Below, in pieces: positions 5,288 to 53,116 of a DNA stretch of 64,000 nt. Under the pieces are notes generated by a model. It made no database searches, was not told the origin of the DNA, and worked only from the letters and a program-made list of their open reading frames with translations. The position numbers were made by a program, and so were the translations under genes. The stretch comes from Liolophura sinensis (lineage: Eukaryota; Mollusca; Polyplacophora; Chitonida; Chitonidae), in contig NC_088299.1 in the NCBI RefSeq assembly GCF_032854445.1, positions 16,051,608 to 16,115,607 on the forward strand, in the 5' to 3' direction. The first letter of the stretch is position 1. Every line of letters starts with the position of its first letter.

Positions 5288-8200
5288 CTGAAACAGGTAA
5301 TCAACATCAGGTATGCAATCCCATGAAGAAAGTCATGTGACCCAGCACAGGTAGGCCTACATACAAATGTATATGACAAGAATTTACCCACAATAACCTA
5401 TTTTTCAGCTAAAAATATACTTTCTTTATTCTTTTCAATCCATTATTTTTATGCACAATGATTTACAAAGTATTCATGAGCGTCTGACTGACACAATGTT
5501 CCGTGTTTTGGTTTATGAGTTGAGGAACGTGAGAACAAACACACAGGGGCACGAAAAAACCAAACCACATCATGAACACACCAAACCTGGTGATCAACAC
5601 ACAAAACCTGGTCATGAACATACCAAACCTGGTGATGAACATACCAAACTTGGTCAGTGAAGCAATGCCAGTTGTATTGTGGTGTGCTGGCCGCCGTGGT
5701 ATAAGTGAAATATTCTTGAGTACAGCGTAAAACACCAATCAAATAAATAATAAATATTGTGGTGAGTTGTTACAGTCAGCAGGCTGCATTACTGTTTCCA
5801 GAGTAAAACAAGCATTCTGGAAATAATAACTACATGTAAAAGTACATCTTTATGGCTGGCTGTATCATAAACCTATGCCCGCAGCACCGGGGTTCTGGGG
5901 ACTGCTCTTAATCCCCTGGCTATAGCAGGAAGGCCGAGACTACAACATACCTCAGCTGGTCTGTTCTGGGGACCAATCTTCCTCGCCTGGGTGTAGGAGG
6001 AAGGCTGAGACCACAACATACCTCAGCTACTCTGTTCTAAGGACCGCTCTTCCTCCCCTGGCTGTAGGAGGAAGGCTGAGACTACAACATATCTCAGATG
6101 CTCTGTTCTGGGACCGCTCTTCTTCCTCTGGCTGTAGGAGGAAGGCTGAGACCACAACATACACAGCTACTCTGTTCTGGGGACAGCCCTTCCTCCCCTG
6201 GCTGTAGGAGGAAGGCTGAGACTACAACATACTTCAGCTCCTCTGTTCTGGGCACCGCTCTTCCTCCCCTGGCTGTAGGAGGAAGGCTGAGACTACAACA
6301 TACCTCAGCTGCTCTGTTCTGGGAACCGCTCTTCCTCCCCTGGGTGTAGGATGAAGGCTGAGATAACAACATACTTCAGCTACTCTGTTCTGGGGACAGC
6401 ACCTTCCTCCCCTGGCTATAGCAGGAAGGCTTAGCTTACAGCATACCTCAGCTGCTCTGTTCTGGGAACTGCTCTTCCTGGCTGTAGGAGGAAGACTGAG
6501 ACCACAACATACGTGTCTGTTCTGGGGACAGCTCTTCCTCCCCTGGCTGTAGGAGGAAGGCTGAGACTACAACATACATGTACCTCAGCTGGTCTGTTCT
6601 CGGGACAGCTCTTCCTCCCCTGGCCGTAGGAGGAAGGCTGAGATTACAACATACCTCAGCTGGTCTGTTCTGGGGACAGCTCTTCCTCCCCTGGCTGTAG
6701 GAGGAAGGCTGAGATTACAACATACCTCATCTGCTCTGTTCTGGGGACCGCTCTTCCTCCCCTGGGTGTGGGATGAAGGCTGTAATTACCACACGCCTGG
6801 TTCATCTGCCAATTCTGGGGACAGCAGTTCTTCCCCTGGATGTAGGAGGAAGGCTTGGATTACAACATACCTGGTTCATCTGTCTGTTCTGTTGGCAACT
6901 CTTCCTCCCCTGGCTGCATACCCTGACCCCTGAGAGGAGACAGGTCCAAAGTGTCGGGGACATCAACAGAGACATCTGAAATCAGAAACCCATATACAGG
7001 TATATGCAACAACACATCAGAGTGCAACACAGCCAACATGCGTGATATCAACTGTAACACTTCATTACCGTTAAAGGATTATTGATAAGATGCTGTTTTT
7101 CTCTTTGATAGACATTTCTTTGGAGCACATGTGGATGAAACTGGGACGCCCAGCAGATAACACACCCCACTGTAGAATACACAGAGGTTATTGAACGGTG
7201 AGTTTTGAATACCATAAATACTTTTCCAGGGAGAACTGGAAATGATAAACCATGAGGAGACATTTCCATCTTTCACAAGAAAAATATTTGTGGCATTCAA
7301 CTTTCACTAAGCAATATTCCATTTACTATTTATATTTCAACAATGTCACTTATCATTTTGTGTATTTGAATAAGGTTAAGCAGAGACTCAAATCAGTAAA
7401 ATCTCACCTAACTTCTTGGGCACCCAATCCTCTCCTATGGTGAACTTTTTTAACTGAATCACTAAGAAGTCTGGAAATGTTGACAATCTGGTTGTTCTGA
7501 AAAAATAAAATAAATATGGAATTTCAAAGCAGACATTCTGAAGTTGGTAAAAAAAAAGCATATTACCCGATCCTATGCAAACCTTCCAATCGAGTTATAT
7601 ATTCTTGTTATATTAGAATAGCAAAATCAGAATGTCTAATCTGACTAATGGAAATTCAAATGTTCATCGATGCACAGAGACCTGGAATACTACATTGCTA
7701 CATTGTACATACAAAAAACTTACTGCTGAGCTTTGCACTTGGACTGGAGAGCTGAGCTGTAGAAATCATCTATAATCACTGTGGCAGCGAAAGATTCTAT
7801 ACATGACTGTAAAGGAATTTGGGGACGAACTATTTCTGATGGATCTCTACAATGCAGATAAAAATAACCAAATTGCCTTCAGTAATTAATCACAACCGTC
7901 AAAATCATTAACTTTGTCACATCATTAAATATGATAAAATTTAACAGTAAGATGAAAAAATGGGAACAGAGAAACCTTGTAATTTGTAGATTGAGAAGAA
8001 AGTGGCACAAGTCTATAAAATCAAAATCTGGAACACATGACCTTGCAATAGGCTATCCATCAAGACAGAAATATCTGATATTTTGAAGTTGATGAATTTA
8101 ACTCAAATCCTTTCAAAGTCACATGACTGAACAGACAAATGAGATCATGGAAGTGCCATGGGTGATTTAAAATGCACAAGTGGACAAACAATATCCAAGG

Positions 8201-11200: not shown

Positions 11201-14200
11201 TTCTCTGGTCAAAGGATAATGTCTTAAGTTTTTTCTCATTTACAGAATATTTGTAGGACCAAAAACACTCTGCTCTTACTTGTATTGCGTAAAATGGCCA
11301 TTATTACACAATTTCTTTACAAAGACATATGCTCTTGAAAAACACATGTTTTCAGAAAGAATGTCTCTTCGCACATCCAACCACAGAGAACCAACAGTCT
11401 CAAGGAATCAAAGGACTAAAAATTAACTGGTCAATTTACCGCTTCTGAAAGTCTGGGACTGTGAAGAGGATTTGCATGACGGAGTTCATATAGCAGCTGT
11501 TGCCAAGGTTACGGATGCCAGTGAGTCCAGGTCCATAGACTGGGATGAGTTTATTGCCCGCCTCCTGGATCACGTCCCACTCTCCAACCTTCTGGTTCAG
11601 ATCAATCTCCATCTCGATCATTGTTTTCTCTGTCTGAAACACAGCACATTAAACACTTAGACCTACACAATTCGCTGTATGAACCGCAGCACATTAAACA
11701 CTTAGACCTACACAATTCGCTGTCTGAAACACAGCACATTAAACACTTAGACCTACACAATTCGCTGTCTGAAACACAGCACATTAAACACTTAGACCTA
11801 CACAATTCGCTGTCTGAAACACAGCACATTAAACACTTAGGCCTACACAATTCGCTGTCTGAAATGTAGCACATCAAACACTGAGGCCTACACAATTCTC
11901 TTTCTGAAACGCAGAACATCAAACACTGAGCCCTACACACTTCTCTGTCTGAAACGCAGCACATCAAACACTGAGGCCTACACAATTCGCTGTCTGAAAT
12001 GTAGCACATCAAACACTGAGGCCTACACACTTCTCTTTCTGAAACGCAGAACATAAAACACTGAGCCCTACACACTTCTCTGTCTGAAACGCAGCACATC
12101 AAACACTGAGGCCTACACACTTCTCTTTCTGAAACGCAGAACATCAAACACTGAGGCCTACACACTTTTCTGTCTGAAACATAGCATGTCAGACACTGAG
12201 GCCTACACACTTCTCTGTCTGCAATGCAGCATGTCAAACACTGAGGCCTACACACTTCTCTTTCTGAAACGCAGAACATCAAACACTGAGCCCTACACAC
12301 TTCTCTGTCTGAAGTGCAGCACGTCAAACACTGAGGCCTACACACTTTTCTGTCTGAAACATAGCACGTCAGACACTGAGGCCTACACACTTCTCTGTCT
12401 GAAACACAGCACATCAAACACTGAGGCCTATGCACTTATGTTTGAATCCCACCTCATTTTTACTATCCACTGAGTCCCTAAAACGCCCGAAATGTGATAT
12501 GTCAAAAGACGCACTGGTAAACCATCTTTCAACAGTAATCCAGCCGTTTAAACTTTCAAATCAAACAACTCAAATCAACGTCTGCCATCTTTGGAAGTTT
12601 TTTTTTCAACTTCGGTCAAGACGATGGGTCACTAAATGTTTGGCCAGATAAGGGTACAGTCTCACCTTTTGTATGGCTGCTATGTTTATTCCCCACTGAG
12701 CTAATAGTTTGGCATGATAAGCGTACAGTCTCACCTTTTGTATGGCTGCTATGTTTATTCCCCACTGAGCTAAATGTTTGGCCAGATAAGGGTACAGTCT
12801 CACCTTTTGAATGGCCACTATGTTTATTCCCAATAAGGGTACAAGCTAATCTTTTGCATGGCAGCTATGTTTATTCCCCACTGGGCAAATAGTTTGGCCA
12901 GATAAGGGTACAGTCTCATCTTTTGTATGGCAGCTATGTTTATTCCCCACTGAGCTAATAGTTTGGCCAGATAAGAGTACAGGTTCACCTTCTGAATGGC
13001 CACTATGTTTATTCCCAATAAGGATACAAGGTAATCTTTTGTATGGCTGCTATGTTTATTCCCCACTGGGCAAATAGTTTGGCCAGATAAGGGTACAGTC
13101 TCACCTTTTGAATGGCCACTATGTTTATTCCCAATAAGGGTACAAGCTAATCTTTTGCGTGGCAGCTATGTTTATTCCCCACTGGGCAAATAGTTTGGCC
13201 AGATAAGGGTACAGTCTCACCTTTTGTATGGCAGCTATGTTTATTCCCCACTGAGCTAATAGTTTGGCCAGATAAGGGTACAGTCTCACCTTTTGAATGG
13301 CCACTATGTTTATTCCCAATAAGGGTACAAGCTAATCTTTTGCATGGCAGCTATGTTTATTCTCCACTGGGCAAATAGTTTGGCCAGATAAGGGTACAGT
13401 CTCACCTTTTGAATGGCCACTATGTTTATTCCCAATAAGGTTACAAGCTAATCTTTTGCGTGGCAGCTATGTTTATTCCCCAATGGGCAAATAGTTTGGC
13501 CAGATAACGGTACAGTCTCATCTTTTGTATGGCTGCTATGTTTATTCCCCACTGGGCAAATAGTTTGGCCAGATAAGGGTACAGTCTCACCTTTTGTATG
13601 GCAGCTATGTTTATTCCCCACTGAGCTAATAGTTTGGCCAGATAAGAGTACAGTCTCACCTTTTGAATGGCCACTATGTTTATTCCCAATAAGGGTACAA
13701 GCTAATCTTTTGCATGGCAGCTATGTTTATTCTCCACTGGGCAAATAGTTTGGCCAGATAAGGGTACAGTCTCACCTTTTGAATGGCCACTATGTTTATT
13801 CCCAATAAGGTTACAAGCTAATCTTTTGCGTGGCAGCTATGTTTATTCCCCACTGGGCAAATAGTTTGGCCAGATAACGGTACAGTCTCATCTTTTGTAT
13901 GGCTGCTATGTTTATTCCCCACTGGGCAAATAGTTTGGCCAGATAAGGGTACAGTCTCACCTTTTGTATGGCAGCTATGTTTATTCCCAATAAGGGTACA
14001 AGCTAATCTTTTGCATGGCAGCTATGTTTATTCCCCACTGGGCAAATAGTTTGGCCAGATAAGAGTACAGTCTCACCTTTTGAATGGCCACTATGTTTAT
14101 TCCCAATAAGGGTACAAGCTAATCTTTTGCATGGCAGCTATGTTTATTCCCCACTGGGCAAATAGTTTGGCCAGATAAGGGTACAGTCTCACCTTTTGTA

Positions 14201-17200
14201 TGACAGCTATGTTTATTCCCAATAAGGGTACAAGCTAATCTTTTGCGTGACAGCTATGTTTATTCCCCACTGGGCAAATAGTTTGGCCAGATAAGGGTAC
14301 AGTCTCACCTTTTGTATGACAGCTATGTTTATTCCCAATAAGGGTACAGTCTCATCTTTTGTATGGCTGCTATGTTTATTCCCCACTGAGCTAATAGTTT
14401 GGCCAGATAAGGGTACAGTCTCACCTTTTGTATGGCTGCTATGTTTATTCCCCACTGCGCTAATAGTTTGGCCAGATAAGGGTACAGTCTCATCTTTTGT
14501 ATGGCAGCTATGTTTATTCCCCTCTGAGGTAAGTGTTTGGCAGTGCTACAGATGAGGGGCATACACGTGTAAACACACTTTAAAATTGGATGATAAGCTT
14601 CTAAAGCAGAGCATACTGTATACGCCAGAAGATTTGTGTGTATGCCCAAGATCCCGAAAGTTCCTGTGCCACCACCCACAGCTGTGGAGAAGGCCTACCG
14701 TGATATTTCTCTCTGCGACATTCTCAAGTGTTTGCTATGAAAAAGAATTAGCAAAGGGTTTGAAATGGTCTTTTTGGTTGCTATACTTCAAGTTCTGCTT
14801 CTGTATTGCACAAAATCATCCTAATATCGCTTCCAAATGTCTGATTTCAATTCCCCCCAAATCGTCATTCTGCAGTTTTAAAGTATCATCGAGGGTCCAG
14901 TTCCTGACATATGCCCGTAGCTATGATTTCATGAAGAGACAAGCTAATGCAACGAAATAAAAATATCATGAGAACAGATAGTAACATATGCACAGGAATA
15001 CTTCAGATTTATACTATACACTGCTAATAATTAAAGCACAAAATAATAAATGCTTGTCTTCAAATGTAGGCCCTACATTTGGATTCAGCTTACATGTATA
15101 TCAACAACCGTTTTATCATCTTTTGACACAAAGAAGGCAGTTGTTGACAAGTTTGTATGGGCCAAGAAGTGTTTAGACAGGTAAAAGAAAATTTACCTCT
15201 GGCATCTGGCAGGTTACCATAGAAAAAAATAATACTACAACCCCTTCTATCAAAGCACAAGGAATGAAAAGTACAGAATAAAACTGTCAGTGAATGAGTT
15301 ACTGAAATAAACCTCACACAGATTGATACGAAATAAATGTGTTAACTTCAATGAAATTCATTCCTCTTGTGGAAGAGTTGAAATAATTACTTTATTCCAG
15401 AACGTTTTTGGGCAATTTATATGTAGGTCTACATCTACTTGTATACAAGATAGTCCTGTGTAACTACAAAGGAAGAATCTCTGTACGTATCGATTTATGT
15501 ATACATGTATGCACATGTCTTTTCTTCACTCCTTTCACTCAATCAACTTCATACTTTCCAGGTGTATTACTGGTGACCCAAAATAGTTAAGTGTGGAGTA
15601 CTTGAAAAAAAACAACTCTTTTCTGCGGTATCGCATACTTGGAAAGTCAGAAGTAATTAACATACTCCTTATCTTTCAAAGTCGGGAATACCGTATCCCC
15701 TCTGACAAAAAATTATCTGTAGCACTGGTTTGGCCAGATAAGGGAACAGGCTCACCTTTTGCATGGCTGCGATGTTTATTCCCCAGTGAGCTAAATGTTT
15801 GGCTAAAAAAGGGTCCTCCACCATGTCATCTTCATCGTAAGAGAAAACATCTGTAGTCAAAAAAGCAAGGAGAACTAGTGCAATTACAAATACCTTTACA
15901 TTCACATTTCATATACTTTTATTGATAATGATTCAGCAATGTGAAATTTTCTTCAACAGATATCTAAATGTATGTACAACATACTGACCAAATCAGACCA
16001 GGCACGTAGACAAGAACTATAGAATAATAATCTTGAAAAATGTACCTAGACATAAAGAATTCTTATATTGGGCCCTGACGGGTTGAATATACTTGAGATT
16101 TGGTATACACTGACACGCTTTCCCTCATTTTGTCAGTGTCACCCTCATGTGTCATTTGACACATGTAGAAGCCTTACCTGCCCCGTTGGGTGTTATAGTG
16201 CCCAGCTTGACAGCCAGTGGGTACTTGGTCTTGGCGTAAGCCTCCAAGGCATGGTTATTACCACCACTCCCATCAAAGAACTTCCTGCCGCAGAGGATGC
16301 TGCCATCCGTGAGGTTCAGCCAGAGGTTAGAGGTCAAATCACACTGCTCACACTTCCAGCCTGTAGGTGGGATCTTCTTCCCATTGTCTAACTGTTGTAG
16401 AGACTCAGCATACCTGCAGCACAGAACCAAACATGTGTATTATTATATTTATTTGATTGACTTATTTATTTAATTGTATGCAGTACTCAAGAATATTTCA
16501 CAGAAATGAAGGTCAGCATTATGGTGGGAGGAAACCGGGCAGAGCCTGGGGGACACCCACGATCATTATTGCTGACAGTTGCCCCAAGTTGCTGACAGAC
16601 ATTTCAAAATAAAACTGGAGAGGAAGCCTGCATGATCTAGACTTGAACTCACAGTGATCGTATTGGTGAGAGGCTCCTGTGTCATTGTGCTGCACCAGCA
16701 CACTAAGCACTAGGCATAATATGTTCAGAAATAAATCAACCAGATGCTGTGGTCTTTTGACCAGGCCTATGCCTATACATCAACTTGGCTTCTGACAGAA
16801 ATCACAATAATCAAGTTTATTTATAACCTTCGGCAAAGAGATTATGTTCTTGCCGGTGTTTTTTCTATCTGTTCAGAAACTTTGGGCAGATTTGGCTGAC
16901 AGTTTGTACACAGCTTGAGTCAAGCAACAACCTATGGTGGTCTAGATCTAGATACACATACAGGATATGCTCACCATAGTTCACACAGATCACTGTTCAC
17001 CACTGTACACAGCTTGAGTCAAGCAACAACCTATTGTGGTCTAGATCTAGATACACACACAGGATATGCTCACCATAGTTCACAACGATCACTGTTCACC
17101 ATTGCACACGGCTTGAGTCAAGCAACAACCTATTGTGGTCTAGATCTAGATACACATACAGGATATGCTCACCATAGTTCACACAGATCACTGTTCACCA

Positions 17201-20200
17201 TTGTACACAGCTTGAGTCAAGCAACAACCTATGGTGGTCTAGATCTAGATACACACACAGGATATGCTCACCATAGTTCACACAGATCACTGTTCACCAT
17301 TGCACACGGCTTCAGTCAAGCAACAACCTATTGTGGTCTAGATCTAGATACACATACAGGATATGCTCACCATAGTTCACACAGATCATTGTTCACCATA
17401 GCCATATAGGATAGATATGCAGAATACTGTCCCTTGGTAGGGTGGGGCGATTTGTGCCTTTAGCTGTGGAGGAGATTTGCACTCTCAGAGGGCATTCCAG
17501 CTTATTTATTTATTTTAAGAGCATACCTGTATGTAGGGCTGTAGTGTCAAACTGTCCCACAGATCAGGTACATATCTGCATAAGTATTGTAGTGGCACAA
17601 ACAGTGTTAGACACGTGATGTTAAACAAGTGTAAATTTAACCCACAAGCACCATTAAAATTATTGTTATCATGATCACACAAACATGACAGACCTACACC
17701 TTATGTGCTTTGTGTAATTTATATTTAAAGCACCATGAAAGAATATTTGCCTCATATGCCATGCTGAATGTCAGGCCTATGGTGGAGCAAATCATTGGTT
17801 GCCTGAAATTCTGTTGTCAGACAACACAAACCTTTGTGATCAGTCAAAATATGATTACCAGGCATTGCAAACCCTTGTGTTCAGTCAAAATATGATTACC
17901 GGGCATTGCAAACCCTTGTGTTAGGTCAAAGTATGAATACCAGGCATTGCAAACCCTTGTGTTCAGTCAAAATATGATTACCAGGCATTGCATACCCTTG
18001 TGTTCAGTCAAAATATGATTGCCAGACAATGCAAACTGCATACACTAAACAACTGCATAGTTTTGTAGGAACTTTAAAAGTTGATAAGCATGATAAGTTG
18101 ATAAAATATTGTGTGAAGTTATATGTGATTTACCCACAATCAAATAAAACTGCACCTTTTTTCACCTACTTAGTACAGATGCATAAATAGTTGAAGAAAA
18201 TTTCCATGAAATACTAGGTCATGAACTGCACATACACATATATACTTATATTAAAAGTAAATCAGACAAATTTTGCTCCAGCCTACTTTGAGATGATGCG
18301 CTTCTCCCCATCCCAGGTACCCGCCATTGCAGCTGCCTCCTCAAGCTTCCAAGCATCTTCTGCGCCAAGAATTCCCGCTACTGACAGTGCAACCTAGACA
18401 AGGAAACAACACCAATAGGCTCAGTCCACCATCAAATTCTACAGTTACAGGACTTATTCAATAACAACATGTTGCGCATTTTTAGTCTGTTATTATCATC
18501 ATACGCTGAGAACAGGGGTCTACTTTTCAGTGAAAATCACATTGTGAAGATTTTCAGATACATACACAGCATATGTACAATCATATTGATAACTTATTTG
18601 TACTTACTTGTATAATACAAAATACACTGAGAATTTTTACACATTCATTGTTCTATTTTTCTAGCAATCTGTTTTATATCAAAGTACTGAACATTTAATT
18701 TAGCCGATCAAAGTGATGGTAAGCAAACCGTGCCCTAATAACAGCACTTACTCTGCAGTTTAAAAACATTCCTAATCCAGAAAAAAAAGGCTGGAATCAA
18801 ACTTGAATCACAAGCATATCTTGACAAGCCTCAAAACTTCAGGTCATGCACCCCTGAGCCAGTGTAACCAAATCCATTTTTCTACTTGCACAACCTAATT
18901 TCAGTGATGGATCAACTTCACTGACTGACTGGCTGTTTAAAACTGCACTCAGTACATGTATTTCCCTTTAAATGAGAGCTTTCGGTTTCATGGCTGGAGT
19001 GAATCACCACCAGTCACCGTCAAGTCATCTGAAACTGTCCCCTAGTCTTGTACATGCAGAGTGAGTGGGTTCAAATCTATGCAAAGTCTGCAGAATGAAA
19101 ATGATGAACTTTATGTAAGAGTACAAATGTACTTATACACAGCTCATTTTCCATCAAGATTCAGAAAAAGATTCATCAAGATTAGCAAAATGTGCTAAGC
19201 ATGACTGATTCGTATTAAACACCACACTATTCAAGAATTTCCACTAATAAGACTGGTCAGTTTTATAAGTGGAAGAAACTGGAGTGCCCTAAGAAAACCT
19301 TCACCTTCTGGTAAGTTACAGACATACTTTCTGAGGTGTGACATACATGCACAGACTTTCACACTATATTGGTGGTGCAAAAATGATCTTCAACAATTGT
19401 TGTCCTGCAAAAATGGGCGGACAGGCATTGCCAATCGCTTATTGTCATCATGACACCTACAAACATTAATGGCTGGCCAATCTATAGAAGAGAATGACTT
19501 ACAATGTCTGGTAGCTCATCACATGGGAGAGGGATTTCTTTCCAGTCAGGAAGAACCACAATTGATGTTGTTTCCTCAAACTTGAATTTCTTCTCTTCCA
19601 CACTGAATCCTCCTTCAATGCCTGGAGAAAACATATAAACCAGAAGAACGATACTAGTACATGTTCTCTGAAAGACAGATTGACCAAACACAGCTATGCA
19701 CCAGTCAGACTCAAGTAATTAAATAGTAAGCTTGCACAGATAACAAGTGACCATAAGCTGGCACAGTACATGCCTTCTGAGTTACTTGTGAGCCGTGAAA
19801 GTATGGCTTGGTGGGTTTACCTACCTACCCACCTATGACGAGCTTGGTGGGTTTATCTACCTATGGCCAACTTGGTGAGTTTATTTACCTATGGCCAGCT
19901 TGGTGAGTTTACCTACCTGTGGCCAGCTTGGTGAGTTTACCTACCTGTGGCCAGCTTGGTGAGTTTACCTACCTGCGGCCAGCTTGGTGGGTTTACCTTC
20001 TTATGGCCAGCTTAGTGGGTTTATCTACCTATAGCCAGCTTGGTGGGTTTACCTACACAGGCTTAACGACCTATTCCTGACTTGGTGAGCTTACCTACAA
20101 TGTACTATTGCCAGCTTGGTGGGTTTTCCTACTTATGGCCAGCTTAGTGAGTTTACCTACCTATGGCCAGCTTGATGGGTTTACCTACTTATGGTCAGCT

Positions 20201-23133
20201 TAGGGGGTTTATCTAGCTATTGCCAGTTTGGTGGGGTTATCTTTCTATGGCCAGCTTGGTAAGTTTACCTAACTATGGTGGGTTTACCTATCTATGGCCA
20301 GCTTGATGGGTTTACCTACATATGGCCAGCTTCGTGAGTTTACTTACCTGTGGCAAGCTTGGTGGGTTTACCTACACCTATGGCCAGCTTGGTTGGTTTA
20401 CCTACACCTATGGCCAGCTTGGTGAGTTTACCTAACTATGGCCAGCTGGGTGGGTTTACCTACCTATGGCCAGCTTGGTGGGTTTGCTCTCTTTATCTTC
20501 TTCGGACTGTGGAATCTGCAAAAAATTAAACATTTAAAATCATATTTATTTGATTGGTGTTTTCAGCTCTACTCAAGAATACTGCCCTTAAACGACAGCG
20601 GATTATGATGGAAGATAACCGGGCAGAGCACGGTGACCATCTGCAGGTTGCTAGCAGACCTTCCCATGTATGAAGATGCCACCGAAGAAGATGCCACCAT
20701 GAGCTGGACTTGAACTCTAGTGACCACATTGGTGAGAGGCTCCTGGGACATTGCATCCGCTGGTACGCTAACCGCCATCTTCAAACAGCACTAGATAAAA
20801 GAGCGGTGGAAATCTGTCCTGCAACAAGGTGGCACATTACATGCTCTGTAGGGATTCCTTCAACGTCATATGACTGAAAAATTGTTAAATATGATGTTAA
20901 ACCCCAAGCACTCACTCCCCCCTAGCAGGCTTACCCATAGATTATTACTGATTGACGCTAAGCCCTAGCCTCTTCCAACTCCCTGCAGCCATATTTTACC
21001 AACCTAGAAGTGGGAGAGAAGTGATTTTCAATGAACTAATAACTGATCAATGGGACCCTCGAGTGTCAATGCCCTCTAATTGTCACTAACACCTCACAAA
21101 CAATGCTGGCGAGAGAAGTCTACAAATTTCCTGTCCAGACTGATTGTGCACCACCCTTGATGTGCTTTATGGCTGGAGTAGCAGGCCCTACTACTGAGCC
21201 AAGCCCAACTTCTCTCTCTGTCTAAACACACCAAACTAACAGCAAATATCAGTGACAGTGATAGATTAATCGATTAACTGATCACAGTGATTGATCGATC
21301 AATGGACTGATCACTGTGATTGATCGATCAATTGACTGATCACAGTCACTGATTGATTAACTGACTGACTGATATGTTGATGTGCTTCATGGCTGGAGTA
21401 CCACACTCTCCCACTAAGCCATAAAACACACAGCAGACATTAATGACAGTGACTGATTTATGGTTGAACTGACTGACCTCACCTCTTTTCTGACTCTCTT
21501 TATCCGTAGATAAACTGCACAGCTAGATGCAGTCTTTCTGTAATGTCTCTCTACATGCTTCTTGCCCAGTCCAAGAAATGTGCTCATGCAGATGTACAGG
21601 CCATTTTCACTTTCCTTCAACACAGAGAGGACATGTCATACACATATTAAGGGCATAGGTGAAATTCTATTTTATTATACATGCTCCATTCATTTTCAAC
21701 TGACATCTTAGCTGGCAATGGTGACCACGTCAACATTAAAAAGTTCTAATCATGTAATTTTTCTGTATGTGCTTCTCTCCAAGCTAGATACTTATGCTCG
21801 CCTGATTGAGCAGTTCCAAAACTGCAAACTGTTCAAGTCAGGCAATACGTTCAAATACTGACTTCTATAGGGAAATAACATAGAATGACATCATCATACA
21901 CGTGTCAGATATTATTCTCAGACATTCACAGATGTAAAATATAGAGATCGAGTACAACATCACAATATTGACATGTGTTTTCAGTTGGCCCACATAGAGC
22001 ATTAAGAAATATAAGTTTAACCTTCCATCCAAGTATGAACATTAGTTTTTACATACCATACCTTAGAACAGGGGGCTAAAAAAATAAGTTTAACCTTCAA
22101 TACATGTATGAGAGCTCAATATAAAGGAGCTCAAAAACAAGCTTACCCTTCCACTGTATGTAAATTTACAAAAAATACCTTACACCATGTAGTTAAAAAA
22201 AACCAAAAAACTGAGCAAAAAGCTTAACTGAACACCAACGCTTTTCCTTCCCCTCACAATACCTTTCCTTATTTCGTAGAGGTAAGTTAACAACCTGCGT
22301 TCTTCCTATGGGGAAAAGACCTCTTGCTACCCATCTGTAGTGATCACATATTTATCATATAGCTTCATTTTTACTTACTATATAGTCAAAATGCATGCTG
22401 TTTTTCGTCAATCAGTAGACTAACTTGCTTCAACTAAAGAACTTGCACCAACAAAATGTGGTTCATCTATAAATGTGCACAAACTCTTCAGTTTGAATAT
22501 AATTTCACTTAGTGTTGTCAATTCAGTGTTTCATTTTCATCAGCCATTTTGAAGCGTCACTAAAACCTACCTGTGGGTCTTAAATGTAAATAAGTTTTGG
22601 CATATCCTCCAGGGAACTATTATATTTCCATTGCCGACTGAACACAACTTCAATATTCATTAGTTAATCAATCTAAAAAAAAGTATTTTTAGTGCAGGTC
22701 ATTTTGGGTGCAGTCAGCACAGACCTCGTTCAGATCAGTTCCATCTAGCTGGAGTTCGGGAATCTATGACACTTTTTTCGAAAGGCGGGGATGGACTCTT
22801 GTCATCTTGAAGTTGAGCTTAATTTGTAGGCCAACATGTTTACGTCTAATCAAAGAGAGATTAACCATTTATTTTCCTTTGAATCTTGTTGGATAATTTC
22901 ACATATTATATGCAAAGTAAAAGAAGGTGAATTTATTCAAATCATTTCACCTGAAAGTGGGATGAACTTTTTAGTTTTTCTTCGCAGTACACTTATCTAT
23001 TTGTCAAAATGTATCAGTCATCATACTGTACCGGTGTGTCAAACGAGTAGGCACACTCATCCTTGTAGACTTTTTGGCCACCTTGTGGTACACGAATCTT
23101 TGGTAGATGGGGGTTCAGTAAATTAGCCAACAT
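4641..23133 (-). CDS. USP5: Ubiquitin carboxyl-terminal hydrolase 5 (isopeptidase T), partial, 3' end off the window
   Basis: USP5 is a cysteine deubiquitinase that recycles free unanchored polyubiquitin. Eighteen coding exons join with consistent phase into 703 codons without a stop. In gene order they are 23032-23133, 21483-21614, 20464-20515, 19503-19621, 18287-18393, 16178-16413, 15756-15850, 11440-11633, 10829-10900, 10066-10141, 9636-9758, 8886-9039, 8507-8564, 7724-7846, 7408-7496, 6871-6975, 5144-5287 and 4641-4768. All have GT donors and AG acceptors. The start ATG at 23131-23133 opens a protein beginning [16 protein letters not shown], like the vertebrate N terminus. The last roughly 115-130 residues, with the end of the second UBA domain and the catalytic His box, should lie left of the window beyond the satellite. 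The vertebrate protein is about 858 residues. USP5 and USP13 are paralogues; USP5 fits best, but an unduplicated USP5/13 ancestor is also possible. Confidence 0.95.
5574..5656. repeat. Short ~20 bp tandem repeat in USP5 intron 16
   Basis: Four or five degenerate copies of a unit like CCAAACCTGGTGATGAACATA are seen. Their edge abuts a SINE 3' fragment. Confidence 0.75.
5675..5754 (+). mobile_element. SINE-A family, 3' fragment
   Basis: The stretch matches the 3' half of the tRNA-derived SINE seen in full at 46181-46448. Shared landmarks are GCTGGCCGCCGTGGTATAAG, AAATATTCTTGAGTAC and the AATAAATAA tail. Confidence 0.85.
5880..6870. repeat. ~71 bp minisatellite made of USP5 exon 16 donor junction, ~13-14 copies
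   Basis: The array directly abuts the 5' splice site of USP5 exon 16 (6871-6975). Read on the minus strand, each unit holds a copy of the exon 16 tail (CCAGGGGAGGAAGAG, then CCAGAACAGA) followed by the donor GTATGTTGTAAT and about 25 bp of intron. In the copies a pyrimidine-rich stretch ending CTCCTACAG sits just before the exon-like part. Each unit therefore looks like a 40 nt mini-exon with both splice sites. The real exon end is the same sequence with few differences. Confidence 0.93.
6871..15850 (-). CDS. USP5: USP5 exons 7-16: catalytic USP domain up to UBA1
   Basis: Exon 7 encodes [18 protein letters not shown] and ends GINIAAMQK. Exon 8 carries the Cys box [19 protein letters not shown] with the nucleophile Cys. 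Exon 11 encodes [18 protein letters not shown], the QQD motif of USP enzymes. Exon 15 encodes [11 protein letters not shown] and DWVPKKL. Exon 16 encodes [14 protein letters not shown] just before the first UBA domain. Splice phases agree at every junction. Intron 7 (4.1 kb) is mostly two minisatellites plus a transposon; see those entries. Confidence 0.93.
7497..11439. other. USP5 introns 8-14, no further genes seen
   Basis: The introns between the seven small exons here are AT-rich and unremarkable. No repeat array, SINE or extra exon was recognised apart from short AT-rich runs. Confidence 0.6.
11634..12440. repeat. 45 bp minisatellite seeded on the USP5 exon 8 acceptor, ~18 copies
   Basis: The array begins exactly at the 3' splice site of USP5 exon 8. 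On the minus strand each 45 bp unit ends with GTGCTGYGTTTCAG followed by ACAGMGAA, the first exon bases (the real exon starts ACAGAGAAAAC). It thus multiplies the acceptor, its pyrimidine tract and about 8 exon bases. Because 45 is divisible by three, one minus-strand frame is open for 277 codons (11602-12435). It is out of phase with USP5 and is not a gene. In the USP5 phase every decoy leads to a stop (TGA or TAA) within the unit. Confidence 0.93.
12480..12610. repeat. Diverged dispersed repeat, also at 24150-24265
   Basis: The two stretches share an ordered set of blocks, including TGTCAAAAGAC, GGTAAACC, CAACARTAATCCA and ACGTCTGCCAT. This suggests two old copies of one interspersed element. 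No family was recognised. Confidence 0.55.
12640..14540. repeat. Minisatellite (69 bp and shorter units) copied from the USP5 exon 7 donor junction, ~30 copies
   Basis: On the minus strand each long unit encodes [18 protein letters not shown] and then the donor GTGAGACTG. The real exon 7 end reads [18 protein letters not shown] followed by GTGAGCCTG. Each unit therefore carries about 45 bp of exon 7 and its 5' splice site, plus intron bases GTACCCTTATCTGGCC. A second, shorter unit type (with CCCAATAAGG) alternates in a higher-order pattern. The array was split from exon 7 by a transposon insertion; a remnant unit remains at 15728-15755. Confidence 0.94.
14541..15727. mobile_element. Non-autonomous TIR DNA transposon, copy A (1187 bp)
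   Basis: The element starts CAGTGCTACAGAT and ends with its reverse complement ATCTGTAGCACTG, a 13 bp terminal inverted repeat. It is flanked by a 6 bp direct repeat GTTTGG (14535-14540 and 15728-15733) that looks like a target-site duplication. It is inserted in the exon 7-derived minisatellite of USP5 intron 7. A second copy is at 32479-33738, similar along most of its length. No transposase frame was seen, so it is non-autonomous. The superfamily was not identified: the TIR start recalls hAT, but a 6 bp duplication does not fit hAT's 8 bp. Confidence 0.88.
16178..23133 (-). CDS. USP5: USP5 exons 1-6: N-terminal zinc-finger region and ZnF-UBP domain
   Basis: Exons 1-2 encode [12 protein letters not shown] and [19 protein letters not shown], matching the cryptic N-terminal zinc-finger-like domain of USP5. 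Exon 3 (52 bp) encodes a short acidic linker ending KPTKLAIG; this linker is variable in the family. Exon 4 encodes [13 protein letters not shown] onward. Exon 6 encodes the ZnF-UBP core with [23 protein letters not shown] and [11 protein letters not shown]. In the vertebrate protein this pocket grips the free C-terminal Gly-Gly of ubiquitin. Key Cys, His, Trp and Arg residues are retained, so binding of unanchored chains should be intact. Confidence 0.93.
16441..16712 (-). mobile_element. SINE-A copy in USP5 intron 5
   Basis: A minus-strand copy: the T-rich TATTTATTTGATT tail complement is on the left and the tRNA-like head on the right. The head has box-B-like GTTCAAGTC on the minus strand, and the middle has the CCGGGCAGAGCCTGGGGGA block. 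It is diverged and has an internal indel. Confidence 0.85.
16900..17410. repeat. ~102 bp tandem repeat, 5 copies, USP5 intron 5
   Basis: Five nearly identical units contain CAAGCAACAACCTAT, TCTAGATCTAGATACACA and CACAGATCACTGTTCACCA. The unit length is a multiple of three, so a 164-codon plus-strand frame results. There is no similarity to USP5 exons, so this array is not exon-derived. Confidence 0.93.
17860..18035. repeat. ~40 bp tandem repeat, about 4 copies, USP5 intron 5
   Basis: Units carry ATTACCAGGCATTGCAAACC and CTTGTGTTCAGTCAAAATATG. The source is not recognised. Confidence 0.85.
19805..20463. repeat. ~33 bp minisatellite copied from the USP5 exon 3 donor junction, ~20 copies
   Basis: On the minus strand the real exon 3 ends AAACCCACCAAGCTGGCCATAG and is followed by GTAGGTAA. 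The array that starts immediately at this donor repeats that same exon tail plus donor about twenty times. Many copies keep a good 5' splice site; others have lost the GT. Reading on from the true donor meets TAA at once. Confidence 0.94.
20541..20775 (-). mobile_element. SINE-A copy in USP5 intron 2
   Basis: Minus-strand copy with ATTTATTTGATTGGTGTTTT at its left end and GGACTTGAACTCTAGTGACC, the tRNA-like head complement, at its right. It is moderately diverged. Confidence 0.88.
20787..20920 (-). mobile_element. SINE-B fragment
   Basis: It matches the right-hand part of the element at 59153-59477. Shared landmarks are AAAAGAGCGGTGGAAATC, CAACAAGG, CATATGACTGAAAAATTG and CCCCAAGCACTCACT. 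It lies directly beside a SINE-A copy. Confidence 0.85.
21250..21380. repeat. TGATCA/GATTGATC-rich simple repeat
   Basis: Interleaved direct and inverted copies of TGATCACAGTGATTGATCGAT-like sequence, about 24 bp apart, are followed by ACTGACTGACTGA. It can form hairpins. It lies in USP5 intron 2. Confidence 0.75.
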
Positions 23134-27821: not shown

Positions 27822-28450
27822 CCTTACAGGGAACCATACCCTCACCAGGCATGGAACCTTAACACTACAAATATGAGGCTGTGTCAGAGCCAACTCCCTA
27901 CAGGAACCCACAACGTCACCAGGAATGGAATCTTAACGCCGCAAAGACGAGGCTATGTCAGAACCAACTCTCTACATGGAACCAGACATGGAGAAAACAC
28001 AGACACAAGGCAGTGTCAGAACTTACCCTGCCCATAGACACAAGGCTGTGTCAGAACTAACTCTGTCCATAGACACAAGGCTGTGTCAGAACTGACTCTC
28101 TCCATACATAGAACCACAACCTCATCAGACATGGAACTATAGTGTCACAGACATGATGCTGTGTCAGAACTCACTCTCTACATAGAACCATAGCCTCACC
28201 AGACATGAAGAACCTCACAAAGATGAGGCTGTGTCAGAACTAACTCTCTCCATACATAGAACCATAACCTTACCAGACTTGGAACCATAGCGTCACAAAC
28301 ATGAGACTGTCACATTGTGTAAGAACAAACTCTGTACATGGACCATAACCTAACTAGACGAGGAAAACCACACAAACATGAAGCAGTGTCAGAACTAACT
28401 TTCTCCCTGCATGAAACTGAAGAACATCACAAACATGAGACTATGAACTT
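27800..28450. repeat. Degenerate 40-90 bp repeat copied from the CDCA3 stop-codon region, ~10 copies
   Basis: The last codons of CDCA3 and its stop read GAGGCTGTGTCAGAACTAAC. This block recurs with changes near 27882, 27950, 28008, 28040, 28078, 28157, 28226 and 28380. The copies are separated by CTCACCAGACATGGAACC-like 3' UTR sequence. The array lies wholly in the 3' UTR, so the gene end itself has been multiplied. Confidence 0.88.
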
Positions 28451-30362: not shown

Positions 30363-30369
30363 TACACCT

Positions 30370-47400: not shown

Positions 47401-50400
47401 AATAAATTTCATGCAATACTAATGCGATATCTGCAGGTACGTGCTTATATGTATGTGAAAATATCCATTTTTTATTATCAGTGGAGGAGCACCATGAGTG
47501 ACATGGTATTAATATTGACATATATTTAAACTATGACTTAAACTAGATCTCAGCTGGTCTTAAATTACAACATAGCCATCTCCAGCGATGGCAAGATCTT
47601 GGTGGCTGGAGAGACCTCGGACACCGAGCTATTATTGCTAGGACACTTATCCCTTATGCCTTTCATAAATCCTGGCTAGGGTGTCTGCACAAACTTGTGT
47701 GTTTTGCAGGATGCTGATTGTACTAGGCCAGGTATAAAACTGACAAACTTGTGTGTTTTGCAGGATGCTGATTGTACTAGGCCAGGTATAAAGCTGACAA
47801 ACTTGTGTGTTTTGCAGGATGCTGATTGTACGAGACCAGGTATAAAACTGACAAACTTGTGTGTTTTACAGGATGCTGATTGTACTAGGCCAGGTATAGA
47901 ACTGACAAACTTGTGTGTTTTGCAGGATGCTGATTGTACTAGGCCAGGTATAGAACTGACACAGAACCTGGCCCTGGTATTTGATGTACCAAGAATCTCT
48001 TCAGGATCTGCAAGTATGACACATTCTTTGCTTGGTTACTTTTGTTGTCAGTTACATTTTATAAATACCTGCCATTCATGTTTGCCAATACGGTATTAAG
48101 TTTCCTCCACACTTAACTCGTAAGTTTCCTCCAGATGCTATGAGATTTCCTCCAGACACTATGAGGTTTCCACCAGATGGTATGAAGTTTCGTACAGACA
48201 CCATGATGTTCCCACCAGACTCTATGATGTTTCCTCCACACACCATCATATTCCCTCCACACACTATGAGGTTTCCATTGGATGCTGTGAAGTTTCCTAC
48301 TGACAATGTGCAGTTTCCTCCAGACAGTGGGTATTTCCACCAGACACCATTACATTTCCTCCAGACACTATGAGTTTCCACCAGATGGTATGAAGTTTCC
48401 TACAGACACCATGATGTTCCCACCAGACACCATGGTGTGTCCTCCACACACTATGAGGCTTCCTACAGACTGTGCAATTTCCTCCACACACTATGAGGTT
48501 TCCATCATATGCTGTGAAGTTTCCTACTGACACTGTGCAGTTTCCTACAGACACCATGATGTTCCCACCAGACACCATGATGTGTCCTCCACACACTATG
48601 AGGCTTCCTACAGACTCTGTGCAATTTCCTCCAGACACTGGGGATTTCTGCCATGTCCAGCTTTTGTCCACCCATATACATGTACCTGACCTCCATCAAA
48701 GGACTGATGTTTTTGACTACATGGATGTGTAAAACACCTGTCAATTACAGCAGTCAATCAATCAATCAATCAATCATGTATCTATTGTTTCTGTCCCCAG
48801 GCTGGAGTCTGAAGAAGCTGTTTAGCAGTGGACTCACCACTCAGTGTCCCCTCTCTGACATGAGCAAGGTCTATGTTGATGTCACTGACATGGAGGTAAG
48901 ATCACTGTGTAGAGATATACAATATTACTGCTATTGATGAGGCTTCAGGGACCTGATGGGGTATTGCGGTTGTCTGTCCAATTTCCGTCTCCACCATCAT
49001 ATAACTGATATTGTTATGCTGTCTTGTCAGTGCATTAGTAGAATCTTGATTCGCATCTGTGTCTGTGGGCGAGGGGGGCGTAATTTCATAAGCATGATAT
49101 CTCATGAAATAATTATGAAATTGTGACTTTTGGTGACTGCTAGAGCTCTGGTACAGCTCCTTGCTACTACTTTTCAGCTGTCTGGTACAATACATTACAT
49201 CTACACTTGGCTTTGTTTCCATTTATACCACAGAGTAAGGAATCCCCATTCCAGCTGCTGCCCGTGTCTGACTCGACTGATGTAAGATCTGGCCACACTG
49301 GGGACGTCCCCTATGCTGTGTACGATGTAGGTCTTCAGACGCGAGACGGACGCCAGTTCAACCTGGAGCTTATGTACAGCAGTCAGTTTGGCCACAGCAC
49401 TGTCAGACCCCCTCCACTCTACGCTCATCGCTACATTACAGGTAAGACTGCTCACAACTCCCAGTTATAGAGGTCCTGTCCTGTGTTTCCTTTTTCTTCT
49501 CTTACCTTTGAAGGAGAAAATTTGATGGTCGTTTCCACCAAAGATCACCACAGTTATGAAAATCGTTACAACTTGTAATGGCCTTTTTTTTTGAAACCGG
49601 TTGCGTTGTTGTAGTAGGTGGAACCATCTGCCCAGCAAGCTGTTCATGGTTCAATTCCAAATCAAGTCAAACCTCGGTAGCCTTGGTAGTACCTCATTTG
49701 TCACAAAGCATAGGAGTAATATACTATATACTTATTGTCCAGGCATCATTATAGTGTGTCTGGGTGGGACATTCCTCGTGTTGTCTTTGGCATGGCATTC
49801 CAAGGCAGCATTATAAATATGTTGGTACTGCGCCTGGCCTGTTACACAGACGTATGGTAATAACGAAATAATGCTGCAAGCAACTGTAAACCTCAAATTC
49901 AAGTAAGAGAAAGCCAAAATATGAAGTAAGGTTCATCACCCAGACAACTGAAATCTATGCGTAAAAATACTTTCATTTGTTTTTTCAGATTTTATTTTAA
50001 GAGTGTTGAAAGGCTCAAAATGTTTGAATATTTGAATACGGTGGTGGGTTTTATGAGCTGTACTGACAGTATTTAGGAACTCTGACATCATATCACCTTT
50101 TTTACCTGATGTTAATAAGAAGGAAGGAATTTTTGGGAATATTATTTCAGTAATCTTTTACTCATGGGTAAAGAGAGTTATTCCAATGTTCAGTGTTGTG
50201 ATTAGACTTGGAAAGACTTCCTGTGATGTCAGAGTTCCTAAACTTTGATAGTATGGTCCACAAAGCCCACCTTAGAATTCAAATGTTTGAATGCCTTTAA
50301 CTCTTTTCACAAAAATCTAAAAATTAAATGAAAGTATATTTGTGTGTAGTTTTAAGTGGTCTATTTAGTGATGTGTACTTTGATTTTTAAGGCTTTTCCT

Positions 50401-53116
50401 TTAAGGCTTTCTCCGCAAGTGCTGGAAGCACATAGGTAAAACAGTTCAGTACAGGTTTATGGGAATGTGTCCTTATTTTGTGTTTAATCACACTGAAATT
50501 GAACCACATTTAACATTCCCCCATGTTGTTATCTGTGAGCAGGACATGGTTTAGAGAAGGGAGGAGTCACATGTCACCTGTACAACAGCTTACCTGAGGA
50601 TTTGATGATTGTTTACTTGGAGACACTCCCCTGGTACATGAGGATGTACTACAACACATTGAGGATAGAGACTAATGGTACCATGACAGTCAGACCCAGT
50701 AAGTGATGTCAGTCTCATATGTCTGTGAACACAGGAAGTGAAAGTCGTATGTGAGAAGATGTGTCAGCAACCTGTGGATAGTCATGGGTTTCCCCTGGGC
50801 TCTGACCAGTTTCCTCCCATCATATTGCTGGGTGCTGTCATATATTGAAAGTGAAAGTGAAATATTCTTGAACACGATGTAAACCACCAATCAAATAAAT
50901 AAATAAATCAATACTATACCGTAGTATTGCTGTATTAAAGGTCCTTATCATGGGCTCTTGCTGGCTCAAATGGTTAAGGCGCTGGTTCACAGAGACTGTC
51001 AGACCATTGACCAATGAGGTTACCTGCTGGAATTTAACTCTCTTTGAAATTTGTCAGATTTCAGCCAAAGAGAGGTGGTTTCCTCTAGTTTTCTTCCGCT
51101 ACAAACCTAACTGCAGTGATACCAGTGATAAATTCTTGCGCGAACAGTAAACAAACCAATAAACTTGCAATTGTTATGTATTGGAATGTTTTAAAATTTG
51201 AGTTCGACAACATTTAGTTATGTATGCATACTTTCCAACATATCCAATTTTACAGTCATTGTTTAAATGAAAAATTTTTCAAAATGCCAATTGTAAAAGC
51301 TTATAGATAAGTGAACATTCTGTCTACCAATGTATCTTCTTCTTTTCATTGTAATGAATTAATCAATATGGTATTGAGATCTTATTTATCCGTCCCAGTA
51401 AAGCAGACATATCAAGCTTATTTCATGTGTTTACAGAGCATGTTCACTACGTCCCAGGGAAGGACAGAGAGAGACTCTACACTCTGGAACTTGTCCTCCA
51501 CCTACAGGCCTACTCCATCACATCTGTCAGATTTCAGTTTGACCGTGCCTTTCTCAAATGGACAGAGTACCCACCAGATGCCAACCATGGGTTCTATGTT
51601 AACTCTGCTGTGATCAGTGTTAAACTCCCAACCAAAAACCTGGATAAAAGGTAAGGCATGTGGTGGTAAAGAATTAATCCATTTTCGAAGCGTTTATAAA
51701 AGGTTGACTACTGTGATATTATGTGAGGTCTGTGTTACAGTGATGACCCTGTGGTGTAGACTACTGTAATATTGTGTGAAGTCTCTGTTACAGTGATGAC
51801 CCTGTGGTGTAGACTACTGTAATATTGTGTGAGGTCTGTGTTACAGTGATGACCCTGTGGTGTAGACTACTGTAATATTGTGTGAGGTCTGTGTTACAGT
51901 GATGACCCAGTGGTGTAGACTACTGTAATATTGTGTGAGGTCTGTGTTACAGTGATGACCCTATGGTGTAGACTACTGTAATATTGTGTGAGGTCTGTGT
52001 TACAGTGATGACCCTGTGGTGTAGACTACTGTAATATTGTGTGAGGTCTGTGTTACAGTGATGACCCTGTGGTGTAGACTACTGTAATATTGTGTGAGGT
52101 CTGTGTTACAGTGATGACCCAGTGGTGTAGACTACTGTAATATTGTGTGAGGTCTGTGTTACAGTGATGACCCTATGGTGTAGACTACTGTAATATTGTG
52201 TGAGGTCTGTGTTACAGTGATGACCCTGTGGTGTAGACTACTGTAATATTGTGTAAGGTCTCTATTGCAGTGATGACCCTGTGGTGTAGACTACTGTGAT
52301 ATTGTGTAAGGTCTCTGTTACAGTGATGACCCTGTTGTATAGACTGCTGTGATATTGTGTGATATCTCTGTTACAGTGATGACCCTGTGGTATAGACAGC
52401 TGTGATATTGTGTGATATCTCTGTTACAGTGATGACCCTGTGGTATAGACAGCTGTGATGTTGTGTGATATCTCTGTTACAGCGATGACCCTGTGGTTTG
52501 GACTACTGTGATATTGTGTGAGGTCTCTGTTACAGTGATGACCCTGTGGTTTTGACTGCTGTGATGTTGTGTGATATCTCTATTGCACTGATGACACTGT
52601 GGTTTAGACTGCTGTAATATTTTGTGATATCTCTATTACAGTGATGACACTGATTTAAACTACTGTAGTATTGTGTGATATCTCTGTTACAGTGAACACA
52701 CTGGTTTGGACTGCTGTGATATGGTATATTATCTCTGTTACAGTGATGACCCTAACGCTGGGTTCCTCAGGCTTCACACAGAGAGCCTCCTGCTGCAGTT
52801 GCCTACCCCTGACTTCAGCATGCCTTACAACGTCATCTGTTTAGCGTGTACTGTCGTGGCCATAGCATTTGGCTCTCTCCACAACTTGACAACTCGCCGA
52901 TTCCAGCTCGTCGACCCGAGCAAGAAGAAAGGACTCAAGGAGAAAATAAAGTCTTTTTTGCAGCGTGTTTTCAAACAAAAGCCCAAGGAAGGAAGTGTGG
53001 AGGTCAGTGATACTACTAAAGAAAGCTCAGAAGACAAATCTGGTGGAGAAAAGATGAAAAAAAAGTCTAAAGACTCTCTGGAACAAGAGGAACAATTGGA
53101 TAAAAAAGTGCTATGA
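41489..53116 (+). CDS. PIGT: GPI transamidase component PIG-T
   Basis: PIG-T is an ER-membrane subunit of the GPI transamidase. The exons are 41489-41711, 42758-42935, 43490-43727, 44688-44774, 47926-48013, 48801-48895, 49234-49441, 50543-50698, 51437-51650 and 52744-53116, giving 619 residues with agreeing phases. The start has a signal-peptide-like core [17 protein letters not shown]; an in-frame ATG at 41519 is an alternative start. Diagnostic stretches are [39 protein letters not shown] (the last Cys corresponds to the residue disulfide-linked to PIG-K in human), [23 protein letters not shown] and [17 protein letters not shown]-terminal membrane helix is followed by a cytosolic tail that is longer and more Lys/Glu-rich than in human (578 residues total). 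Introns 4 and 9 end in arrays of decoy acceptors. Confidence 0.95.
41905..42052 (+). mobile_element. SINE-C fragment, PIGT intron 1
   Basis: It shares GGAAAGTTCGTCAGTAACTT, GGTTTCCTCC and the ATAAATAAA end with the copies at 26145 and 53418. Confidence 0.65.
42530..42680 (-). mobile_element. SINE-A fragment, PIGT intron 1
   Basis: TTATTTATTTGATTGGTGTT, then TTTACGCCGTACTCAAGAAT and CACTTATACGACGACGGCCA, match the full copy at 46181. It is truncated after GAGGAAGCCAGC and lies just before exon 2. Confidence 0.88.
43768..43860. repeat. ~21 bp tandem repeat in PIGT intron 3, 4-5 copies
   Basis: Units read TACATGTACTGTATTGATCTC with small changes. Confidence 0.88.
44036..44195. repeat. ~20 bp tandem repeat in PIGT intron 3, 7-8 copies
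   Basis: Units read TTGTGATTTGCTGAAGGATC with small changes and one partial unit. Confidence 0.88.
45755..46610. repeat. ~29-31 bp minisatellite in PIGT intron 4, interrupted by a SINE
   Basis: Units contain GGCAGTCTAATGTTCCATGG and GAACACAT. The array is split by the SINE at 46181-46448. No match to PIGT exons was seen, so this array is not exon-derived. Confidence 0.93.
46181..46448 (-). mobile_element. SINE-A, best full-length copy (268 bp)
   Basis: The minus-strand copy runs from a tRNA-like head (GTAGCTCAGTTGGTTAGCG on the minus strand, box B GTTCAAGTC) through a conserved GC-rich centre (CCCGGGCTCTGCCGGGT) to the AATATTCTTGAGTACAGTGT and AAATAAATA tail. It is flanked by a 13 bp direct repeat GACATTGGCAGTG at 46168-46180 and 46449-46461. 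Other copies in the minisatellite read ACACATTGG, so the duplication looks genuine. The type resembles tRNA-derived SINEs with conserved central domains of molluscs; the family name was not checked. Confidence 0.93.
47692..47925 (+). repeat. 54 bp repeat seeded on the PIGT exon 5 acceptor, 4 decoys plus the real site
   Basis: The AG dinucleotides are at 47709, 47763, 47817, 47871 and 47925, exactly 54 bp apart. Each is preceded by TTGTGTGTTTTGC or TTGTGTGTTTTAC and followed by GATGCTGATTGTACKAGRCC. The last is the true start of exon 5 ([13 protein letters not shown]). Because 54 is a multiple of three and the frame is open, each decoy would add 18 residues ([18 protein letters not shown]) per unit. 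Confidence 0.95.
48110..48645. repeat. 21 bp minisatellite with higher-order repeats, PIGT intron 5
   Basis: Units like ATGAGGTTTCCACCAGATGGT (7 codons, MRFPPDG-like) are repeated about 25 times. Blocks of roughly nine units recur (around 48180-48330 and 48380-48640). The multiple-of-three length leaves frames open on both strands. There is no resemblance to flanking exons. Confidence 0.92.
48755..48776. repeat. (AATC)n microsatellite
   Basis: Five AATC units lie just before PIGT exon 6. Confidence 0.9.
50755..50912 (+). mobile_element. SINE-A fragment, PIGT intron 8
   Basis: Plus-strand 3' part: GTCAGCAACCTGTGGATAGT, GGGTTTCCCCTGGGCTCTG, AAATATTCTTGAACACG and CAATCAAATAAATAAAT. Confidence 0.88.
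51720..52743 (+). repeat. 53 bp repeat seeded on the PIGT exon 10 acceptor, ~19 decoys plus the real site
   Basis: Units end in GTCTGTGTTACAG and continue TGATGACCC, the first nine bases of exon 10 (TGATGACCCTAACGC). AGs fall at 51740, 51793, 51846, 51899 and so on to the real one at 52743. Units near exon 10 are the most diverged and those on the left nearly identical. In the exon phase each decoy gives SDDPVV and then a TAG stop, so a decoy choice would truncate the protein. Confidence 0.95.

Follow-up and report, generated by a model that had tools for sequence, protein, structure and literature searches.

The window, by which we mean the whole 64-kb stretch analysed here (G000:C5:16051608-16115607, from one haploid chiton assembly), carries USP5 on its minus strand and PIGT on its plus strand. 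Both genes were placed by exon-by-exon PDB matches, to entry 3ihp for USP5 and to the PIG-T entries 7w72 and 8imy for PIGT. Their splice sites were then read off the sequence, and the resulting exon numbers differ from those of the sequence-only reading in which the arrays described below were first noticed. Between the two genes sits a third reading frame. We take it to be CDCA3, a neighbour of USP5, from that position and a DPRSPT-type motif. A Pfam search with this CDCA3-like frame returned no matches above the cut-off, and Pfam searches of read-through frames in the 25-37 kb part of the window gave nothing useful.

Tandem repeats on exon edges of the window

TRF produced 77 rows for the window. 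Two very long minisatellites occupy positions 1-4421 (58-bp unit, 75 copies) and 58401-60679 (29-bp unit, 78 copies). Exon edges were scanned by aligning the 60 bp centred on each of 42 USP5 and PIGT edges to 4 kb on either side. Edge-spanning tandem copies turned up at five of the 42, and the other 37 gave no matches above threshold in the flanking 4 kb. Four further edges, those of exons 4 and 2b, were judged by eye and included one positive, the exon 2b donor. Multiplied edges thus number 6 of 46 in USP5 and PIGT by alignment and eye together. They comprise three donors and three acceptors, so that both the 5' and the 3' boundaries of exons are affected.

All four USP5 arrays lie, like the gene, on the minus strand. 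A 71-bp array on the donor of exon 14 (array 5892-6916, by TRF and edge alignment; exon 6871-6975, by edge alignment) has nine spanning copies among 13 matches, and its unit combines about 46 bp of exon with the 5' splice site. Exon 7, which contains the catalytic Cys box (11440-11633; 3ihp match and edge alignment), bears on its acceptor the end of a 45-bp array (11626-12437; TRF and edge alignment) with 17 spanning copies, the unit carrying TTTCAG and 8 bp of exon. A 17-residue exon that was read by eye and is here called 2b (20464-20515) encodes a peptide presumably homologous to human DPPRKKPTRLAIG. Its donor, CTGGCCATAG/GTAGGTAAA, is present in 12 copies in an array at 19826-20485 (TRF and sequence reading), each unit holding 22 bp of exon plus the donor.

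The fourth USP5 array (12632-14541; TRF and edge alignment) is built of 69/47-bp copies of the end of exon 6 and its donor, 31 of them spanning the edge. It is severed from exon 6 itself, its seed (15756-15850; PDB match and edge alignment), by 1,214 bp. Most of this gap is filled by a dispersed repeat, found by genome search and extending at least over 14662-15657, without assigned strand. The repeat has at least 75 matches in the genome (40 scored of 344 candidates), with 70-88% identity apart from the window itself; a further copy, 81% identical, lies in the window at 32718-33670. We set aside a possible microhomology origin for the exon 6 array: judged by eye, the word repeated on the 3' side may simply begin the next copy.

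The remaining arrays are on the plus strand. In PIGT, a 54-bp array (47689-47961; TRF and edge alignment) ends on the acceptor of exon 5 (47926-48013; sequence reading and edge alignment), with four spanning copies and about 36 bp of exon in each unit. A 53-bp array (51706-52753; TRF and edge alignment) ends on the acceptor of exon 10, the last coding exon (52744-53116; PDB match and sequence reading); 17 of its 18 matches span the edge, with about 10 bp of exon per unit. Exon sequence makes up just 8-11 bp of the unit in the acceptor arrays of USP5 exon 7 and PIGT exon 10. At 27794-28406, TRF and sequence reading identify an array in which the end of the CDCA3-like frame is copied in tandem together with its stop codon (TAA, 27819-27821). 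The arrays of the window run into the intron or, at the CDCA3-like stop, into the 3' region.

The sequence-only reading had listed seven arrays abutting an exon, each with terminal exon bases plus a splice site or the CDCA3-like stop in its unit. All seven were recovered by TRF, alignment and sequence reading, and alignment upheld the junction-spanning copies, whose failure to align had been named as grounds for rejecting the idea. Six abut their exons as described; the exon 6 donor array does not, given the gap of mostly dispersed repeat. Unit sizes do differ between arrays, but for the unit in what was called intron 3, the exon 2b donor array, TRF gives 28 bp, and longer variants also occur. 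The arrays also differ from each other, as had been stated in arguing against one spreading satellite. Genome-wide searches with two of the seven units (USP5 exon 6 donor and PIGT exon 10 acceptor; very common words skipped) found each at its own locus only, the exon 6 unit also returning the exon 6 copy at 86% identity, and neither of these two behaved as a dispersed satellite with one unit at many loci. The claim that the pattern had not been described does not hold, however: excerpts of two papers describe the same structures in amphioxus as "mirages" (PMC3087553, PMC3902484).

Junction arrays in other chiton genes

Because the window was chosen by a reader who had already noticed the pattern, we turned to other genes. 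Pfam models for myosin head, cullin, CCT/HSP60, USP and aldehyde dehydrogenase served to locate exons, and regions were picked before any sequence letters were seen. The sample consists of nine CCT, five cullin and ten myosin clusters, followed by nine USP/aldehyde-dehydrogenase stretches; the remaining clusters and isolated matches were left out. One case was visible beforehand, a CCTa exon with three tandem matches 109 bp apart in the CCT match table. All nine multi-exon CCT clusters were included regardless of it, and this exon proved to be a mirage. The first sample covers 24 gene regions (235,774 bp) with 142 matched exons; family models built from that sample raised the set to 173 exons and 291 edges. 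Of these edges, 71 were called without a partner, and some sampled introns probably hold unrecognised exons. The USP/aldehyde-dehydrogenase stretches served as a replicate (36,809 bp, 9 arrays, 44 edges). Its edges numbered 38 at first count; three model matches bridge introns, with the U7 donor inside one of them.

Arrays were accepted with a TRF unit of 15-250 bp, at least 2.9 copies and a score of at least 80. Each first-sample case was inspected by eye and needed both a listed edge and exon bases in the unit. An automatic filter requiring at least two spanning copies gave 14 edges. Manual review removed four of them, and two more, the second CULe donor and the MYOf donor, joined once the exon set had been extended, leaving 12. 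Those dropped were the CCTf exon 0 donor (wrong edge), the CCTf exon 0 and CULe exon 2 acceptors (the unit stops at the acceptor and includes hardly any exon, or none) and the MYOa exon 1 donor (an exon duplication, probably of mutually exclusive exons). Arrays lying against an edge but lacking exon bases (CCTg, U5 and the CCTf exon 0 donor) were not counted.

Several features of the sampled regions and of the assembly may be recorded here. The MYOa region (L026-L027, G000:C1:26636900-26650500) contains several myosin exon segments as diverged tandem exons, which are probably mutually exclusive. A single CCT gene (L011, G000:C8:53404050-53412700) has two donor mirages, and one of its exons is flanked by two more arrays that abut acceptor and donor without clear exon bases. 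On contig G000:C99, cox1 matches seven times at a spacing of about 15.5 kb, and once on contig C632; the C99 series appears to be a tandem multimer of the mitochondrial genome, either an artefact of assembly or a large insertion in the nuclear genome. Mitochondrial reading frames, all but cox1 named by eye, run in the order nad3-nad2-cox1-cox2-atp6, as fits a chiton.

Arrays occupy 31.1 of the 235.8 kb of the first sample. Twelve of its 55 arrays contain a listed exon edge (nine donors, three acceptors), where uniform seeding predicts 2.1-2.9 and a GC-adjusted expectation is 2.8-3.8 (p 3e-6 to 5e-4); they are found in 9 of the 24 gene regions. Two of the nine replicate arrays contain a known edge, the U3 acceptor and the U7 donor, against 0.45 expected from 44 edges (p = 0.08; with the first count of 38 edges, 0.39 expected and p = 0.06). 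A third junction array of the replicate is at the donor of an exon that the model search missed, in a gene that we take to be USP12/46-like (L038, G000:C8:30702050-30707000). Its 99-bp unit holds about 84 bp of exon plus the donor, and the array extends over oriented positions 2898-3718.

When known edges are pooled, 14 of 64 arrays contain one, against 2.6-4.2 expected, a 3.3- to 5.4-fold excess (p 6e-7 to 1e-4). The overlap with junctions above random expectation that the sequence-only reading had anticipated is present in an independent sample. The 14 edges are about 4% of the approximately 335 listed in the sampled genes (291 in the first sample and 44 in the replicate), and 12 of 33 regions have a junction array, counting the one at the unlisted exon. 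Whichever of five thresholds was applied, the gene-bootstrap interval for the excess ratio did not include 1, on counts that contain the erroneous CCTf edge. The excess is smaller, about twofold, in a test conditioned on introns: across 110 paired introns, 9 of 32 arrays contain an edge against 4.47 expected (p = 0.04), the unconditioned expectation for the same introns being 3.43 (p = 0.005). An earlier and smaller version of this test, on the first 61 introns, gave 5 of 14 against 1.89 (p = 0.043). The conditioned figure for 22 introns of the window, with the severed exon 6 array scored as non-edge and the exon 14 array outside the set, is 4 of 13 against 1.24 (p = 0.037).

Size, sequence and origin of the arrays

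Junction units measure about 28-136 bp, differ between loci and reach 49 copies. Junction arrays have a median length of 690 bp, compared with 252 bp for other arrays (p = 0.006). In a post hoc split, 75 arrays (at least 1.8 copies, score of at least 50) were divided at a TRF score of 300. Twelve of the 39 large arrays contain an edge against 2.27 expected, whereas only one of the 36 small arrays does, against 0.96 expected, and this lone case is a marginal 18-bp match of 2.2 copies. The contrast is significant (Fisher p = 0.0016), with the reservation that it was drawn post hoc and that small arrays are few; it also appears, again post hoc, among units of at least 25 bp (12/31 large versus 0/14 small, p = 0.0085). 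The exonic share of the unit, compiled by hand for 18 arrays, does not differ from a uniform distribution (KS p = 0.56). Such an even spread argues that the unit breakpoints are not located at the splice junction.

Eighteen arrays were entered in a test of similarity to the exon against distance from it, two of them having fewer than five copies. Rank correlation was negative in 11 of the 16 with at least five copies (mean rho -0.27, Wilcoxon p = 0.029), three of the negative values being within 0.1 of zero, and positive in 5 of 16. Decay toward the far end occurs in any minisatellite. In the severed exon 6 array, GT is kept in 16 of 31 copies (0.78 expected); 15 other arrays keep GT or AG in 174 of 186 copies. 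Over all 16 junctions, 190 of 217 copies have an intact dinucleotide, where the neighbouring dinucleotides would predict 177. Splice-site matrices were built from window and sample sites, 133 donors and 133 acceptors. Measured against the real sites, 196 of the 233 array copies at 18 junctions reach at least the tenth percentile, and 124 of the 233 score at least as high as their own authentic site. Correct gene models would imply that, among these putative decoys, the copy next to the exon is normally the one chosen. TRF unit lengths are not multiples of three in 13 of 18 arrays.

The excess might be explained in several ways. According to the sequence-only reading, some process starts tandem duplication preferentially at junctions; chromatin, transcription or splicing, or a sequence motif could have this effect. 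The excess over uniform seeding is what such targeting would produce, and it survives GC adjustment. However, the few small arrays show no excess, the breakpoints are evenly spread about the junction, and the stop codon was hit as well, where no splice site is involved. We therefore regard a preferential start at junctions as doubtful, and rank it below growth or persistence through anchoring. Alternatively, seeds might fall anywhere in the introns of a minisatellite-rich genome, and those on recognisable exon edges were the ones noticed. Arrays are common, the intron-conditioned tests reach just p = 0.04 in sample and window, and the replicate on its own does not reach significance; but the pooled count and the gene-bootstrap interval, the latter computed with one erroneous edge, both speak against pure chance, which we consider improbable.

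Two further proposals concern the splice signals themselves. The introns could have been gained by tandem duplication of an AGGT-containing piece of exon, with the arrays as remnants, a route that the amphioxus authors proposed from mirages (PMC3087553, in the excerpt consulted) and with which the frequent presence of both AG and GT in the units agrees. Intron gain of this kind predicts repeats at both ends of an intron. Neither the 32 arrays of the 110 sampled introns nor the 13 of the 22 window introns include one that overlaps both edges, which leaves the proposal with hardly any likelihood. Selection for redundant splice sites, in which the copies act as back-up donors and acceptors, would fit the number of copies that retain GT or AG and look competent. 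The surplus above neutral expectation is small, however, and the severed exon 6 array lacks GT in half of its copies. Moreover, since most units are not multiples of three, a back-up site would rarely rescue the reading frame. Selection for redundancy is accordingly very improbable.

We favour, with a probability of roughly 0.65, the explanation that mirages come from chance duplications spanning a junction, are lengthened by ordinary turnover and become over-represented through anchoring, so that initiation need not be targeted. A minisatellite would be born when a short tandem duplication happens to span an exon-intron junction or, as here also, a stop codon; the duplication itself would need no targeting to junctions. 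The array would then lengthen through the usual turnover of tandem repeats, that is, slippage, unequal exchange and conversion. This is consistent with units made of an exon end and a splice site, in arrays that reach into the intron and recur across unrelated chiton genes. The spliced copy would be the one touching the coding exon, and the remaining copies would for that reason be intronic and tolerated. More speculatively, the exonic copy may be held constant by purifying selection and so anchor and re-feed the array, and anchored arrays might be over-represented because they become larger or live longer than free intronic ones. That the excess is confined to large arrays suggests, post hoc, that junction arrays grow or survive better, and not that they start preferentially. 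We read in the same sense the greater length of junction arrays, the breakpoints away from the junction, the closer likeness to the exon of copies near it, and the loss of GT in the severed array where the others kept their signals. Against this stand the weak intron-conditioned test, a replicate that alone is non-significant, a size contrast drawn post hoc on few small arrays, the arrays with positive or near-zero rho, and a severed array that is a single case. We put forward only tentatively the stronger statement that purifying selection on the exon is the anchor of the minisatellite: a junction-spanning duplication would have one copy protected from loss and drift, and its array would expand and endure several-fold better than arrays lying free in introns.

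Mirages were formerly a curiosity of a few lancelet genes. Their presence at some 4% of sampled edges and in more than a third of sampled regions suggests that they are a general property of some minisatellite-rich genomes, one that would have arisen independently or be common to distant phyla. They constitute natural experiments in splice-site choice, in which a tandem row can offer as many as dozens of similar and apparently strong sites; presumably the one nearest the exon alone is used. They also bear on the lengthening of introns and may mislead the prediction of genes and the mapping of short reads. From the dependence on size comes a testable idea for the growth of some tandem repeats, namely anchoring by a selected copy. 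Were anchoring true, several per cent of mollusc splice junctions would bear long rows of strong decoys, and splice-site choice there would be set by exon proximity and not by site strength.

Comparison with known systems

The founding paper on mirages is reportedly that of Canestro et al. 2002, on amphioxus Adh3. According to the excerpt of PMC3087553, which attributes the name to earlier work on Adh3 and cites further loci, the amphioxus globins BflGb6 and BflGb9 have minisatellite-like duplications of intron-exon boundaries whose repeat number varies between haplotypes while splicing is undisturbed. The excerpt of PMC3902484 describes a mirage in amphioxus PGBD5 and cites troponin C too. 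As in these cases, the chiton units span an exon-intron boundary at donors or acceptors, vary in length by locus (10-160 bp in amphioxus, in the excerpted text) and keep the AG/GT signals in many copies, though not all. The differences from the amphioxus reports are the mollusc host and the measurement of density and enrichment across 33 sampled regions. Length polymorphism and normal splicing were reported in amphioxus, whereas the chiton arrays are known from the sequence of one assembly. Further traits of amphioxus mirages are length instability between haplotypes or somatically, and concerted evolution in which copies at the cluster boundary are less homogenised; the chiton observation that bears on the latter, the correlation of similarity with distance, is mixed, with negative rho in 11 of 16 arrays.

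Other systems share parts of the pattern. Internal tandem repeats of human paralogs (PMC2812944, from an excerpt) likewise involve minisatellite variation at exon-intron boundaries, and can alter splicing; they are recent, half of them are coding, and those at boundaries can create new introns. The chiton arrays, unlike these, are intronic (one lies past a stop codon) and adjoin coding exons. Tandem duplication of splice-site sequence is also common to the Rogers model of intron gain by AGGT duplication and to potato RdRp, as excerpted from PMC4974935; the chiton introns examined differ in having repeats at one end only, with no sign of a new intron. The polyubiquitin gene UBC, with its tandem dual-specific splice sites, similarly places tandem splice-competent sites in one transcript, but its repeats are coding monomers (PMC10809524, in excerpt) and the chiton copies are intronic, putative sites. 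One abalone gene has an intronic minisatellite, by the excerpt of PMC6905558. Among the matches listed in the open-licence literature, we found the pattern neither in molluscs nor elsewhere outside amphioxus, except for the human case of PMC2812944. Judged by their sequence organisation, the chiton arrays are mirages, a known kind of structure; as far as our searches show, the taxon, the density and the size-dependent enrichment are new.
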